From an uncultured Acidimicrobiaceae bacterium (GTDB lineage Bacteria > Actinomycetota > Acidimicrobiia > Acidimicrobiales > MedAcidi-G1): a DNA stretch of 38,494 bases. The stretch's first letter is position 1; each line of letters begins with the position of its first letter. A program made the position numbers and the translations under genes. This document shows positions 2,924 through 22,811 of this stretch, piece after piece. Under the pieces are notes generated by a model, which was given only the letters and a program-made list of their open reading frames with translations, did not search any database and had not been told where the DNA came from. The stretch covers positions 1 through 38,494 of the forward strand of contig CAJWFS010000010.1 of the NCBI GenBank assembly GCA_913030665.1. Reading direction: 5' to 3'.

Positions 2924-3937
2924 ATGGGACCGGAAGACTTCGCATACCAGCTCCCGGATGCTGCGATCGCCCAGGTGCCCCTGGAGGACCGGCCGGCGGC
3001 CCGGCTGCTGGATGCTGTAGGTCACAGCGTCGTGCACCGGACGGTCCGAGACCTGCCATCGCTGCTGGGACCCGGTGACGTGCTGGTGGTCAACGACACC
3101 CGCGTGCTGCCCGCCCGATTGCGACTTCGCCGTCGGACCGGGGGAGGCGCCGAGGTGCTGCTGTTGAGGGCACTGGAGGGCGACGGGACCTGGGAGGCCC
3201 TGGTACGGCCCAGCCGCAAGCTGCCCGAGGGGACGACCCTGGCAGTGGACGACGACCTCTCGGTGGAGGTCGGCCGGGACCTGGGCGACGGGAGGCGCCA
3301 CGTCCGGCTGCTCTGCAACGGTCCGGTGCTCGAGGCCGTCCACCGTTGTGGCGAGATGCCGTTGCCCCCGTACCTCACGACGGTCCTGGAGGATCCCGAC
3401 CGCTACCAGACGGTCTACAGCCGCCGATCCGCGTCGGCGGCGGCCCCGACGGCCGGACTCCACCTGACCGAACAGGTTCTGGACGCCTGCCGGGCAGCCG
3501 GAGCACGCATCGAATCGCTGGAGCTGGTGGTCGGGCTGGACACCTTCCGCCCGGTCACCGTGGACGACCTGGACGAACACCGGATGCACCGGGAGGAGTA
3601 CTGCGTGCCGGACACCACCCTGGAGGCCTGTCGGGATGCCAGCAGGGTCATCGCCGTCGGAACCACGACAGTGCGGGCCCTCGAGTCGGCGGCACGCTAC
3701 GGCGCGGAGGGCCGGACCGACCTCTTCATCCGTCCACCGTTCGACTTCCGGGTCGTGGACGTCCTCCTGACCAACTTCCACCAACCGCGTTCCAGCCTGC
3801 TGGTCATGCTCGAGGCCTTCGCCGGACTCCGCTGGAGGGAGCTCTACGGGACGGCGCTGGCAGACGGCTACCGCTTCCTGTCGTTCGGCGACGCCATGCT
3901 CGTGGGCCGGGCCCGTCCAGACAGGTCGGGGGCGTAG
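2924..3937 (+). CDS. queA: S-adenosylmethionine:tRNA ribosyltransferase-isomerase QueA
   Basis: QueA transfers and rearranges the ribosyl group of SAM onto preQ1 at tRNA position 34, giving epoxyqueuosine. The 337-residue protein is of normal length and shows the family segments: N-terminal FAYQLPDAAIAQVPLEDR, VLVVNDTRVLPARL, then LPPYL, APTAGLHLT, VGLDTFRPV, VGTTTVRALES, TNFHQPRSSLLVML and YRFLSFGDAML. It is followed 49 bases later by tgt, the preceding pathway step. No preQ1 synthesis genes (queC/D/E/F) are in view, so it cannot be said from here whether preQ1 is made or salvaged. Confidence 0.95.
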   Translation: MGPEDFAYQLPDAAIAQVPLEDRPAARLLDAVGHSVVHRTVRDLPSLLGPGDVLVVNDTRVLPARLRLRRRTGGGAEVLLLRALEGDGTWEALVRPSRKLPEGTTLAVDDDLSVEVGRDLGDGRRHVRLLCNGPVLEAVHRCGEMPLPPYLTTVLEDPDRYQTVYSRRSASAAAPTAGLHLTEQVLDACRAAGARIESLELVVGLDTFRPVTVDDLDEHRMHREEYCVPDTTLEACRDASRVIAVGTTTVRALESAARYGAEGRTDLFIRPPFDFRVVDVLLTNFHQPRSSLLVMLEAFAGLRWRELYGTALADGYRFLSFGDAMLVGRARPDRSGA

Positions 3938-3986: not shown

Positions 3987-5096
3987 ATGAGGGCCGCGTT
4001 CACCACCGCCACCACGGACGGCGGAGCCCGGACCGGGCGGGTCGACACCCCCGGCGGGTCGTTCGCCACGCCGTGCTTCATGCCGGTCGGTACCCGTGGC
4101 GCCGTGCGCCACCTCTCCTCGGAGGACCTGGTGGACCTGGGCGTCGAGGTGGTGCTGGGCAACACGTACCACCTGATGCTGCGTCCCGGTACGGAGGTGG
4201 TCCGGAACCTGGGCGGACTCGGGAAGTTCGCCGGCTGGGAGGGCGTGACGCTCACCGACAGCGGCGGATACCAGATCTTCTCCCTGAAGCCGAAGGTCGA
4301 CGATTCCGGGGCGACCTTCAGGTCCAGCTACGACGGGTCCACACACGTGCTCACCCCGGAGACGGCGGCATCCGTGCAGGCGGACCTGGGGGCCGACATC
4401 CAGATGGTCCTGGACGTCTGTCCGGCGCTGCCCGCCGACGAACCCGTCCTGCGCCGGGCGGTGGAGCGGACGGCGGCATGGGCGGCCCGTGGCCGCCGGG
4501 CGTTCCTGGACCACCCGGACGCCGCCGCACGCCAGTGCCAGTTCGGCATAGTGCAGGGCGGGGTGGACCCGGTGCTGCGGGCCGAGAGCACCCGGCGGAC
4601 ACTCGAGGTGGGCTTCGACGGCTACGCCGTCGGCGGCATGAGCGTGGGGGAGTCCCGCGACGAGATGCTGGAACCGCTGGCCGTCGTCACCTCCATGCTG
4701 CCGTCGGACCAGCCGCGCTACTTCATGGGCCTGGGGGACCCGGCGGGCCTCGTGGAGGTGGTGGCCAGGGGAATCGACATGTTCGACTGCGTGCTACCCA
4801 CCCGGCACGCACGCCACGGAACCGTGCTGACCACCGGAGGCAGGCTGAACCTCCGGAACGCCCGGTTCGCCAGGGACGACCTCCCACTGGATCCGGCGTT
4901 TCCAGCCAGCCCGGCGGCCCGATGGTCACGCGCCTACCTTCGGCACCTCCTGATGACCGATGAGCCCACCGGCCGGCGCCTCCTGACTCTCCACAACCTG
5001 GCCTGGCTGCTGGACTTCGTGGACCGGTTGAGGGCGGCCATCGAACAGGGACGGTTCGAGGCATTCAGGACCGAGACGTTGGCCGTCTGGGGCTGA
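3987..5096 (+). CDS. tgt: Queuine/preQ1 tRNA-guanine transglycosylase lacking the zinc cysteines
   Basis: TGT exchanges guanine 34 of GUN-anticodon tRNAs for preQ1. The 369-residue protein keeps the TIM-barrel landmarks: TDSGGYQIFSL (catalytic Asp), MVLDVCPALPADE, FGIVQGG, GGMSVGES and FDCVLPTRHARHG (nucleophile Asp). The C-terminal metal site is altered. Bacterial TGTs carry C-x-C-x2-C-x25-H; at the same spacing this protein has F305, A307, A310 and H336, so all three cysteines are gone while SRAYLRHL and the TLHN histidine remain. The usual FDEC segment also reads LDVC. Identity is secure from the rest of the protein and from the queA neighbour; whether it is active without zinc is open. 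ATG 3987 has only a weak upstream GAGGGA. Confidence 0.93.
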   Translation: MRAAFTTATTDGGARTGRVDTPGGSFATPCFMPVGTRGAVRHLSSEDLVDLGVEVVLGNTYHLMLRPGTEVVRNLGGLGKFAGWEGVTLTDSGGYQIFSLKPKVDDSGATFRSSYDGSTHVLTPETAASVQADLGADIQMVLDVCPALPADEPVLRRAVERTAAWAARGRRAFLDHPDAAARQCQFGIVQGGVDPVLRAESTRRTLEVGFDGYAVGGMSVGESRDEMLEPLAVVTSMLPSDQPRYFMGLGDPAGLVEVVARGIDMFDCVLPTRHARHGTVLTTGGRLNLRNARFARDDLPLDPAFPASPAARWSRAYLRHLLMTDEPTGRRLLTLHNLAWLLDFVDRLRAAIEQGRFEAFRTETLAVWG

Positions 5097-5578: not shown

Positions 5579-7081
5579 ATGCCACGTCGCCAGCTCGTAT
5601 TCCTGATCGGGATCGTCATCCTCACCGTCGCCGCTTCGGTGATGACGGTCGTCTGGCGAAACGAGCCGCTGCTAGGCCTCGACCTGCAGGGCGGCGTGTC
5701 GGTCAGGTTGGTGGCGGTCGGCCCGGCCGACGAGGAGATGCTGGACCAGGCGGTTGAGATCATCCGTGACCGGGTGGACGGCCTGGGCGTAGCCGAACCC
5801 GAGATTTCACGGACCGAGAACGGCGTGATGGTCTCGTTGCCCGGCGTGGACGACCAGGAACGGGCGCTCTCGCTGGTGGGAACCACGGCCGAGCTGCGGT
5901 TCCGGCCCGTCTGTCGCGTGTACTCCGCCCGCGGCGCCTCCCGGCCGGCCTCCGGCGTGGTGTCGGCCATACCTGCCTCGTGCGAGGCAGTCGCCACCGG
6001 CGAGGTCGTCCCGGCAGTCGGCCCGGCCGGCGTAACCCTTCCCGAGGACGACCGACCCGGGGACTTCGTGGTGCTGGGCCTGAGGGGCGACGAGGGCGGG
6101 CGACGCTACCTGCTCGGCCCCAGCCTCCTCACCGGTGAGGCGGTAAGCGACGCCGATGCCCTGTTCATCGACTACCAGTGGCAGGTCGGCCTCGAGCTCC
6201 ACGAGGGCGCCGTGGGCATCGACGGCTTCAACGCCATCGCCGCCCTCTGCTTCTCCGGCTCTCCGGCGTGTCCACGCTCGGAAGGTGTCACCAACGGTCG
6301 TCTGGCCATCGTGCTGGACGGCCAGGTCGTGACCGCTCCCTCGATCCGGGCGCCCGAGTTCCGCAGGGACGCCATCCTCATCTCGGGGGGCTTCGAGAAG
6401 ATCGAGGCCGACGACGTCTCCCTGGCGCTGCGCTACGGCGCCCTGCCCGTCGAGTTGGAACCCGAAAACATCCGCCTGGTCTCGGCCACGATTGGTGAGG
6501 ACTCGTTGCGGGCCGGCGTCGTGTCCGGCCTCATCGGCCTTCTGCTGGTCGCCGTGTTCATCGTCGGCTACTACCGGATCCTGGGTCTCGTGGCGCTGGC
6601 CAGCCTGGCCGTCTCCGGCGCCCTCCTCTGGTCGATCATCGCCCACCTGGGGACGCAGTCGGGCCTGGCGCTGACCCTCGCCGGGGTAACCGGAATGGTC
6701 GTGGCGATCGGTGTCTCCGTCGACTCCAACGTCGTGTACTTCGAGCACCTGAAGGAGGACGTGCGCGACGGGCGGACGGCCCGCTCCTCGGTGGATCGGG
6801 CGTTTCCGATCGCCTTCTCCACCATCGTCAAGGCGGACACGGCCTCCCTCATCAGTGCCGGCCTGCTCTGGTACCTGACCGTCGGAGCGGTACGCGGCTT
6901 CGCCCTCTACCTCGGGTTGGCCACCATCCTGGACCTGGTCGCCACCTACTTCTTCATGGGACCGATGATCCGCCTGCTCTCCACCACACGTTGGTTCGCC
7001 GAGCATCCGGAGCGCTTCGGCCTCCCATCCAGCGGTGCCGTGTCGGCCACGGCAGGCAGCCTCAGGCGGGCCGGGGCATGA
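5579..7081 (+). CDS. secD: Protein translocase subunit SecD
   Basis: SecD with SecF uses the proton-motive force to complete protein export on the outer face of the membrane. The 500-residue protein has an N-terminal membrane anchor (residues 5-25), then the GLDLQGGVSVRL motif and the large extracytoplasmic P1 region. The C-terminal half holds RND-type membrane helices with GMVVAIGVSVDSNVVYFE and a conserved Asp in IVKADTASL. A Cys-containing insertion (VCRVYSARGASRPASG, later CFSGSPACP) lies in the extracytoplasmic part, as in other actinobacterial SecDs. It overlaps secF by ATGA. Confidence 0.95.
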   Translation: MPRRQLVFLIGIVILTVAASVMTVVWRNEPLLGLDLQGGVSVRLVAVGPADEEMLDQAVEIIRDRVDGLGVAEPEISRTENGVMVSLPGVDDQERALSLVGTTAELRFRPVCRVYSARGASRPASGVVSAIPASCEAVATGEVVPAVGPAGVTLPEDDRPGDFVVLGLRGDEGGRRYLLGPSLLTGEAVSDADALFIDYQWQVGLELHEGAVGIDGFNAIAALCFSGSPACPRSEGVTNGRLAIVLDGQVVTAPSIRAPEFRRDAILISGGFEKIEADDVSLALRYGALPVELEPENIRLVSATIGEDSLRAGVVSGLIGLLLVAVFIVGYYRILGLVALASLAVSGALLWSIIAHLGTQSGLALTLAGVTGMVVAIGVSVDSNVVYFEHLKEDVRDGRTARSSVDRAFPIAFSTIVKADTASLISAGLLWYLTVGAVRGFALYLGLATILDLVATYFFMGPMIRLLSTTRWFAEHPERFGLPSSGAVSATAGSLRRAGA

Positions 7082-21210: not shown

Positions 21211-21765
21211 ATGGAACCGACCGCCGGGCTGCAACCCCATCGACACCTGGCGCTGGTCGGGCTCATGGGCGTCGGCAAGACGTCGGTGGGTGCCGCGGTG
21301 GCGGCCCGGTCGGGCCGTCGTCACGTGGACCTGGACCGTGCCGTGACGCAGTTGGCTGGTCGGTCTATCGGCGTGATATTCCACGAGGGCGGCGAGGCGG
21401 CTTTTCGCGCCTACGAGCAGGAGGCCCTGGCCATGCAGCTGGCTGCCGAGGATCCGGTGGTCATCTCCACCGGTGGTGGGGTCCTGATCGGCGAGTCCAA
21501 CCGGGAGGTGCTGGCCAGGTCCGCCACCGTCGTCTGGCTGAGGGCCACGCCCGAAACCCTTGCTGGACGGGTGGGGGACCCGGACGGCCGGCCCCTCCTG
21601 GCCGACGGTGAGCCACTGGAGGTGCTGCGGCGCCTTGCCGACGAGCGCGGCCCCTCGTACGAGACGGCTGCGGATGTGGTGCTTGACACCGACGGCCTGA
21701 CGGTCGACGAGGTCGGATGCATGGTGATCGACGTCGTTGCCGCCACCGGCGGGGTGCCCCAGTGA
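21211..21765 (+). CDS. aroK: Shikimate kinase
   Basis: AroK phosphorylates shikimate at the 3-OH with ATP. The 184-residue protein shows Walker A GLMGVGKTS (Lys 23), the substrate-binding DLDRAV..LAGRSIGVIF and GEAAFRAYEQEAL, the STGGG loop, and the lid segment with GRPLL. Standard single-domain length. It couples to aroB by a GTGA overlap. In most actinobacteria aroC sits just before aroK; it is not present here. Confidence 0.95.
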   Translation: MEPTAGLQPHRHLALVGLMGVGKTSVGAAVAARSGRRHVDLDRAVTQLAGRSIGVIFHEGGEAAFRAYEQEALAMQLAAEDPVVISTGGGVLIGESNREVLARSATVVWLRATPETLAGRVGDPDGRPLLADGEPLEVLRRLADERGPSYETAADVVLDTDGLTVDEVGCMVIDVVAATGGVPQ

Positions 21766-22811
21766 TCCGGGTCACGGTGGAGCTCCCCGGAGGTCGCTCC
21801 TATCCGGTCCTGGTCGGGCCGGGCGCCGTCGGCGAGCTGGCATCCGTCGTGCCGACGGGTGTCCGCCGGGTGGCGGTGGTCACCCAGGATTCGGTCCCGG
21901 TGGAGGTGGATCCCGGGGTCGAATACCGGGTGTTCAGGATCGGTGACGGCGAGACGGCCAAGAGCCTGTCCACCGTGGAGGAGCTCTGTTCGGCGTTCGC
22001 CGGCTGGGGCCTGACCCGTGCCGACGCGGTGGTGGGCGTCGGGGGAGGCGTGGTCACCGACGTGGCCGGCTTCGCAGCGGCCTCGTACCACCGGGGTCTG
22101 CCGGTGGTGCACGTGGCAACCACCCTGCTGGCCCAGATCGACGCGGCCATAGGCGGCAAGACCGGGGTGAACCTCCCCGAGGGCAAGAACCTGGTTGGAG
22201 CGTTCTGGCAACCGGCGGCGGTGGTCTGCGACACGACCGTCCTCGAGACGTTGCCCGAGCGCGAGATGGCCTGCGGGCTGGGCGAGATGGCCAAGTACCA
22301 CTTCCTGGGCGGGGGCGACCTGGGTGGGGGCGATCCGGGAAGCGGCGAGATGGCGGGCGGCGACCCGGGCGGCCTCACGCTGGAGCAGCGGGTCGCCCGG
22401 TGCGTGCAGATCAAGGCCGAGGTTGTCGCCGCCGATGAGCGCGAAGCCGGTCGACGCGCTGTCCTGAACTACGGGCACACGCTCGGCCATGCACTGGAGA
22501 CCACGGGTCGCTACGACCTGCGCCACGGCGAGGCCGTCGCCGTCGGCCTGGTGTACGCAGCCGAGTTGGCGCTCTCCCTCGGTCGCATCGACGACGAACG
22601 CGTGGCCGAGCACCGCAGGGTCGTGGACGGCTATGGGCTCTCGGGTTCGCTGCCGGCAGGCTCCGATCCCGACGAGTTGATGGCCGCCATGGGGCGAGAC
22701 AAGAAGGCCATCGACGGCCTGACGTTCGTTCTGGACGGCCCCTCCGGGGTCGAGGTGGTGCCCGGCGTCGATGCCGGGGTCGTGCGCGCCACGATCGAGG
22801 CGGTCCGGTGA
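21762..22811 (+). CDS. aroB: 3-dehydroquinate synthase with a Gly/Asp-rich replacement segment
   Basis: AroB converts DAHP to 3-dehydroquinate using NAD+ and a divalent metal. The 349-residue protein keeps GDGETAKSLSTVEEL, VGVGGGVVTDVAGFAAA, PTTLLAQIDAAIGGKTGVN (here TTLLAQ), NLVGAFWQP, ACGLGEMAKY, AADEREAGRRAVLNYGHTLGHALE and HGEAVAVGL, including the metal ligands. Odd: residues 183-204 (22308-22373) are GGGDLGGGDPGSGEMAGGDP plus GG, a low-complexity stretch where homologues have an amphipathic helical segment; overall spacing to the next conserved motif is unchanged. GTG 21762 overlaps the aroK stop. Confidence 0.94.
   Translation: MIRVTVELPGGRSYPVLVGPGAVGELASVVPTGVRRVAVVTQDSVPVEVDPGVEYRVFRIGDGETAKSLSTVEELCSAFAGWGLTRADAVVGVGGGVVTDVAGFAAASYHRGLPVVHVATTLLAQIDAAIGGKTGVNLPEGKNLVGAFWQPAAVVCDTTVLETLPEREMACGLGEMAKYHFLGGGDLGGGDPGSGEMAGGDPGGLTLEQRVARCVQIKAEVVAADEREAGRRAVLNYGHTLGHALETTGRYDLRHGEAVAVGLVYAAELALSLGRIDDERVAEHRRVVDGYGLSGSLPAGSDPDELMAAMGRDKKAIDGLTFVLDGPSGVEVVPGVDAGVVRATIEAVR
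22308..22373 (+). repeat. Gly/Asp-rich coding microsatellite inside aroB
   Basis: A G-rich stretch with repeated GGGCGA(C/T)C(T/C)GG-type units encodes GGGDL, GGGDP and AGGDP. It is in frame, 66 bases long, and stands out from the flanking aroB sequence. Confidence 0.7.

Follow-up and report, generated by a model that had tools for sequence, protein, structure and literature searches.

Can a bacterial tRNA-guanine transglycosylase (TGT) do without its structural zinc? The question is raised by the tgt gene of a 38,494-nucleotide stretch of DNA (the window) from an uncultured Acidimicrobiaceae bacterium, whose product has none of the three cysteines of the C-x-C-x2-C-x25-H zinc site. Published descriptions treat TGT as a zinc enzyme whose zinc domain helps to bind tRNA; the accessible portions of two papers state that TGT requires zinc (PMC9508795, citing Chong 1995) and that the zinc domain is a hallmark of TGTs (PMC6165067). 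In the literature on TGT, queuosine and zinc-free L31, surveyed by title or the start of the abstract and partly among the matches listed, with supplements and subscription papers outside its scope, we found neither a report of TGTs without zinc ligands nor biochemical data for a TGT recognised as lacking them.

The zinc site of the window TGT

The gene order on the forward strand is ruvC-ruvA-ruvB-queA-tgt-yajC-secD-secF, and other housekeeping genes are present in the window; except for queA, tgt, alaS, pyrC and aroB, gene names were read from the translations. The tgt frame opens with ATG and has no internal stop, and its product scores 400.9 bits against TIGR00430 (curated cut-off 306.75), which places it in the Tgt family, and 422.1 bits against PF01702 (cut-off 26.3). 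Scans of the window with Rfam and for tRNAs gave no matches. The aroB gene (21717-22811) scores 297.7 against a curated cut-off of 305, just below it, and carries the motifs NYGHTLGHA and RHGEAV.

We compared the zinc site across 132 TGT rows read in the class (L113, L119, L121, L129, L140, L211, L224 and L225, which are duplicates, fragments and one near-identical species, were left out), comprising 38 site-lost and 94 CCCH rows (Table 1). A site is called lost when its four positions are not C-C-C-H, and at least two of the three cysteines are replaced in every such row; CCCH denotes an intact zinc site.

Table 1. Coordinates in the window of tgt, queA and the residues at the former zinc site, with the residues found at the same positions in the class
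Feature	Position	Strand	Evidence
tgt, tRNA-guanine(34) transglycosylase without zinc cysteines, 369 aa	3987..5096	+	TIGR00430 and PF01702 scores
queA, next queuosine-pathway enzyme, directly upstream of tgt	2924..3937	+	NF001140 351.4 bits (cut-off 324); TIGR00113 288.3 bits (cut-off 267.45)
F305, at zinc Cys 1 position	4899..4901	+	codon TTT; 38 site-lost rows: F 30, W 4, L 2, A 1, V 1
A307, at zinc Cys 2 position	4905..4907	+	codon GCC; 38 site-lost rows variable: A 17, E 6, S 5, others; one Cys, one gap
S308-P309 turn beside the lost third Cys	4908..4913	+	P309 in 33 of 38 site-lost rows; V, T, A or I in 94 CCCH rows
A310, at zinc Cys 3 position	4914..4916	+	codon GCG; 38 site-lost rows: A 26, I 3, T 3, G 2, V 2, S 2
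H336, fourth zinc-ligand position, kept	4992..4994	+	codon CAC; H in 37 of 38 site-lost rows, X in one

The initial annotation had claimed that the three cysteines are replaced at the exact spacing of the motif and that no frameshift is involved, and both points are borne out by the codons, the intact frame and a phmmer alignment with Zymomonas mobilis TGT, gapless over this stretch, that pairs F305, A307 and A310 with the zinc cysteines and H336 with the zinc histidine. The protein has four cysteines (residues 30, 145, 184 and 268), and a scan of its whole length for a zinc motif elsewhere, a check proposed with that annotation, found no C-x-C or C-x2-C; the motif has therefore not been displaced. 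The C-x-C-x2-C-x25-H site is thus absent as such and reads F305-A307-A310-H336. Anyone who regards the zinc site as the defining feature would exclude this protein from the classical TGTs; its sequence, fold and active site make it a variant within the bacterial TGT family, to which every tested feature but the zinc site assigns it.

For the view that the site was lost in sequencing, in assembly or through a frameshift, we found nothing in favour, although the source genome is fragmented (1.94 Mb in 177 contigs, 88.5% complete). The family of this bacterium (f1) comprises 25 genomes; one has no TGT match (G020), in another the TGT ends before the site (G003), and the 23 readable TGTs, the window's own included, all lack all three cysteines, one having an X at the His position. 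The answer to whether close relatives share the Cys-less site is therefore yes, and since the other 22 genomes of f1 with a readable TGT show it, with synonymous differences between them, the loss is neither error nor chance. With the gapless alignment at the site also against it, the artefact reading is refuted by the relatives and keeps practically no probability.

Active site, fold and pathway context

The catalytic Asp motifs had been described as intact, and D91 and D267 match, by the phmmer alignment, the catalytic pair Asp102/Asp280 of Z. mobilis TGT (Z. mobilis numbering; PMC6165067). Both are among the residues (D91, D143, Q190, E222, D267 and H320) that never vary across 62 aligned CCCH and site-lost TGTs, where C145, V220, F81 and Y317 are nearly invariant (at least 90%). 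We take Asp156/Cys158 to be residues of the preQ1-type TGT pocket, and a pocket of this type is present in the window TGT as G216-G217-M-S-V220-G221-E222, D143 and C145. GGxxVG is the preQ1-type pocket as in E. coli TGT, and GG[LS][AS]G has been reported for queuine salvagers (PMC11570991). An aromatic cluster at the dimer interface of Z. mobilis TGT consists of Phe92, Trp326, Tyr330 and His333, according to the accessible part of PMC5395182; F81, W313, Y317 and H320 align with it, so the cluster is kept.

Structure prediction, which had been proposed as a check, gave a confident AlphaFold model (mean pLDDT 95.2, and 97-98 for residues 301-320). It predicts the TGT (beta/alpha)8 barrel, and its best Foldseek match is Z. 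mobilis TGT 1ozm (TM 0.96, rmsd 1.3 Å). The model of a CCCH control (L026, pLDDT 95.8) is similar overall; it has a short helix at residues 305-309, equivalent to 308-312 of the window TGT, and the window model has coil there. Such a model cannot prove stability without zinc. Selection on the gene can be gauged from its relatives: dN/dS between the window tgt and each of seven relatives is 0.10-0.18, and in most of the seven pairs the codons for F305 and A310 differ only synonymously, leaving both residues unchanged.

The neighbouring queA, described beforehand as intact, exceeds the cut-offs of two models, and QueG is found in the genome at 239.8 bits (cut-off 200). Across the family, queG is over its cut-off in 23 of 25 genomes and missing in 2. 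Among the 23 tRNA matches in the source genome are tRNA-Asn(GTT) and tRNA-Asp(GTC), whose anticodons mark them as TGT substrates; the 88%-complete assembly yielded no match to tRNA-His or tRNA-Tyr.

This context bears on the idea that tgt is decaying as the lineage moves toward queuosine loss. Neither QueC over its cut-off nor a transporter of the QPTR/YhhQ family was found in the 25 family genomes, and across the class a TGT match is present in only 207 of 296 genomes, some of which were read, with none in the rest. Against decay stand the intact frames and low dN/dS values, the adjacent queA and the widespread queG, and we consider it quite improbable.

A change of base substrate, or a role as a non-catalytic partner like eukaryotic QTRT2, for which zinc-dependent tRNA handling would not be needed, could be read from the pocket region, where LDVC (142-145) stands for FDEC and GGM (216-218) for GGL, both as the initial annotation had described them. 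Its suggestion of altered base specificity is nevertheless not supported. LDVC is common to many CCCH TGTs of the class and GGM occurs, among the rows listed, only in the window TGT and in L003 and L005, which belong to three close species, so that altered specificity is unlikely on these grounds; moreover, both catalytic Asp residues and the GGxxVG valine of preQ1 enzymes are retained, QueA and QueG are present, and the sole TGT match of the genome is the one that adjoins queA. A substrate change or a partner role is, in our estimate, marginally less probable even than decay. With one TGT match, the 88%-complete genome also holds no pair of zinc and zinc-free TGT paralogues.

The window tgt probably encodes a working preQ1-type bacterial TGT that no longer binds the structural zinc. 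Such an enzyme would exchange G34 of GUN-anticodon tRNAs for preQ1, with a C-terminal subdomain presumably free of zinc. A bulky side chain at 305, in most cases Phe or Trp, would hold the loop once pinned by the metal, helped by a small side chain at 310 and the Ser-Pro turn, and H336 may be kept for packing or hydrogen bonding. The residue pattern at 305-310 in the 38 site-lost class rows is consistent with a buried bulky side chain and a tight turn. The zinc-independent TGT of the initial annotation is thereby supported as far as it can be inferred: the site is gone, the gene is conserved and under purifying selection, the predicted fold is normal, and published genetics on Sinorhizobium meliloti, discussed below, point the same way.

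Spread of site loss

Beyond the family, 15 of 16 order mates have a TGT, 13 of them CCCH and two site-lost (LGVH in G036, LTIH in G040). In the class, L148 (ACTH) retains a single cysteine at the site, and the other 37 of the 38 site-lost rows retain none; the 38 rows come from eight families of the order (f1, f13, f17, f22, f25, f28, f29 and f31), and an Acidimicrobiales metagenome-assembled genome (MAG; L035) has a WEAH site, as in f22. On a class tree of 130 rows, the site-lost rows and two CCCH rows of family f26 form a 38-row clade (SH-aLRT 92), and the state changes at least twice. The two f26 rows, L132 (G293) and L153 (G218), are CCCH TGTs whose position inside the clade is poorly supported, and their genomes carry zinc-type L31; separate losses around them, transfer or regain are all possible readings. 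The zinc-site state is followed by the site's own positions 305, 307 and 310, mostly by 309 and partly by 341. Columns 185, 173, 246 and 97 also separate site-lost from CCCH rows, but the f26 CCCH rows share them at least partly, so they look like ancestry, and we rejected them as compensating positions.

Site loss is also found outside the class. A contig scan of other genomes yielded the best 80 loci, hence a biased sample, and without L032 and L035 these make 78 rows, 18 site-lost and 60 CCCH. The site-lost rows include Alphaproteobacteria of several orders (SCSH, SCAN, SCTN, SCSN, SWAI and SSAI), an unclassified Proteobacterium (SCAV), a Pelagibacter (CILH) and two Verrucomicrobiales (SPAH, and EHCH with uncertain alignment). 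In all alphaproteobacterial site-lost rows except Pelagibacter, Ser stands at the position of residue 305. Just four of the 18 have no cysteine at the three positions, 12 keep the cysteine of site 2, and the His is replaced in nine, which speaks against a substitute metal site among them. A 129-row tree was made with the site columns removed, a quick tree with SH-aLRT support only; on it the zinc-site state changes at least seven times, and nine site-lost clades result if losses are taken as irreversible. A tblastn search of a plasmid collection with Agrobacterium TGT matched at least 69 records, four of which were read; since Paracoccus and Sphingomonas TGTs in it are CCCH and that of Methylobacterium is SCAN, the state is mixed within Alphaproteobacteria. 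In one Verrucomicrobiales MAG (L087, TGT at 6001-7065) the loop is rearranged in such a way that one Cys, with His and Glu residues close by, might make up a different metal site.

The genetics available come from Alphaproteobacteria. The TGT of S. meliloti strain Ak57 (L421) reads S-C-T-N, with one ligand of four kept, and tgt works in S. meliloti strain 1021 on phenotypic evidence, queA having little symbiotic phenotype, according to the accessible part of PMC3568095; the comparison thus joins genetics in strain 1021 to a sequence from strain Ak57, and SCTN, which retains one Cys, differs from FAAH. L421 lies in CP090106.1 (3.7 Mb, S. meliloti, named pSymB), where a queA-like frame is directly upstream of tgt; the size of this record suggests a chromosome labelled as a plasmid. 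Partial complementation of an E. coli tgt deletion has been reported for the TGT of Bartonella henselae, which belongs to the order Hyphomicrobiales like S. meliloti (PMC11570991), and the word zinc is absent from the main text of that paper on Bartonella TGT.

Zinc economy and comparison with known systems

Why the ligands were lost is a separate matter. A lineage living in low zinc could have discarded the zinc sites it can spare, with TGT and ribosomal protein L31 as two cases. In line with this, the only L31 found in the source genome (L311, G000:C57:20-456) is free of cysteines, and among the 76 class-tree rows in which both states are known, L31 is exclusively zinc-free in 29 of 30 site-lost rows as against 10 of 46 CCCH rows, with two genomes that have both L31 types (G066 and G082) counted as zinc. 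Zinc-free L31 is found in seven of the eight site-lost families of the order, f28 being the exception, and G231 is the sole exception among the 30 site-lost rows. It also occurs in the SPAH Verrucomicrobium (G343) and in 11 proteobacterial genomes with a site-lost TGT.

Several observations weaken this explanation. With only about two changes of TGT state on the class tree, there is one independent TGT-L31 pair on well-supported branches and there are two on all branches, and the association therefore carries no statistical support. Two site-lost genomes, G231 (FAAH) and G344 (EHCH), have zinc-type L31, and conversely the 10 CCCH rows have only the zinc-free form. All 13 proteobacterial L31 proteins read (12 from Alphaproteobacteria, one unclassified; the match in G334 lies outside the 13, and three genomes have no L31 match) are zinc-free, those of the two CCCH genomes G331 and G340 included. 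A general loss of zinc sites was considered and is excluded, since the zinc motifs of S14 and L36 in the genome and of AlaRS and dihydroorotase (PyrC) in the window are intact. A partial zinc economy is possible; overall we regard zinc economy as an unlikely cause, if one with more in its favour than decay or a changed substrate, and a structural replacement not driven by strong selection is no less likely. The zinc-sparing adaptation proposed in the initial annotation is accordingly a weak possibility: the L31 counts speak for it, the small number of independent pairs and the intact motifs against it.

A wider reading is more doubtful still: the structural zinc of TGT would be an evolutionarily dispensable clamp, dropped several times with varied zinc-free replacements (an aromatic residue and Ser-Pro in Acidimicrobiia; in Alphaproteobacteria, Ser with Cys, Trp or Ser, the His frequently being Asn or Ile), preferentially after loss of the zinc form of L31, as one stage of a lasting zinc economy that the translation apparatus attains step by step. 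Whatever the cause, natural ligand-free TGTs, that of S. meliloti working according to its genetics, would show that zinc acts in TGT as a structural clamp for which there are substitutes, would put right annotation rules in which the zinc motif is required, and would provide related pairs of CCCH and site-lost enzymes in which the role of zinc can be tested.

Among known systems, the window TGT resembles bacterial TGTs such as that of Z. mobilis in predicted fold, catalytic Asp pair, preQ1-type pocket, dimer-cluster residues and QueA neighbour; it differs in having F305, A307, A310 and a Ser-Pro turn in place of C-x-C-x2-C, with the His alone left. Eukaryotic QTRT1 and QTRT2 share the TGT fold with it, but both retain the zinc domain, according to the accessible parts of PMC6165067 and PMC4425180. 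The TGTs of Hyphomicrobiales (S. meliloti, Agrobacterium, Rhizobium, Brucella, Methylobacterium and Bradyrhizobium) have likewise lost the site (SCTN, SCSH, SCSN, SCAN, SWAI and SSAI), yet they have Ser at site 1, mostly one Cys at site 2 and often Asn or Ile for the His, and they form a separate clade from the window TGT on the 129-row tree. Zinc-free L31, present in the same genome, is, like the window TGT, a version of a protein without its zinc-binding motif; L31, however, comes as two types that sometimes stand side by side, as in G066 and G082, whereas TGT is one gene changed in place.
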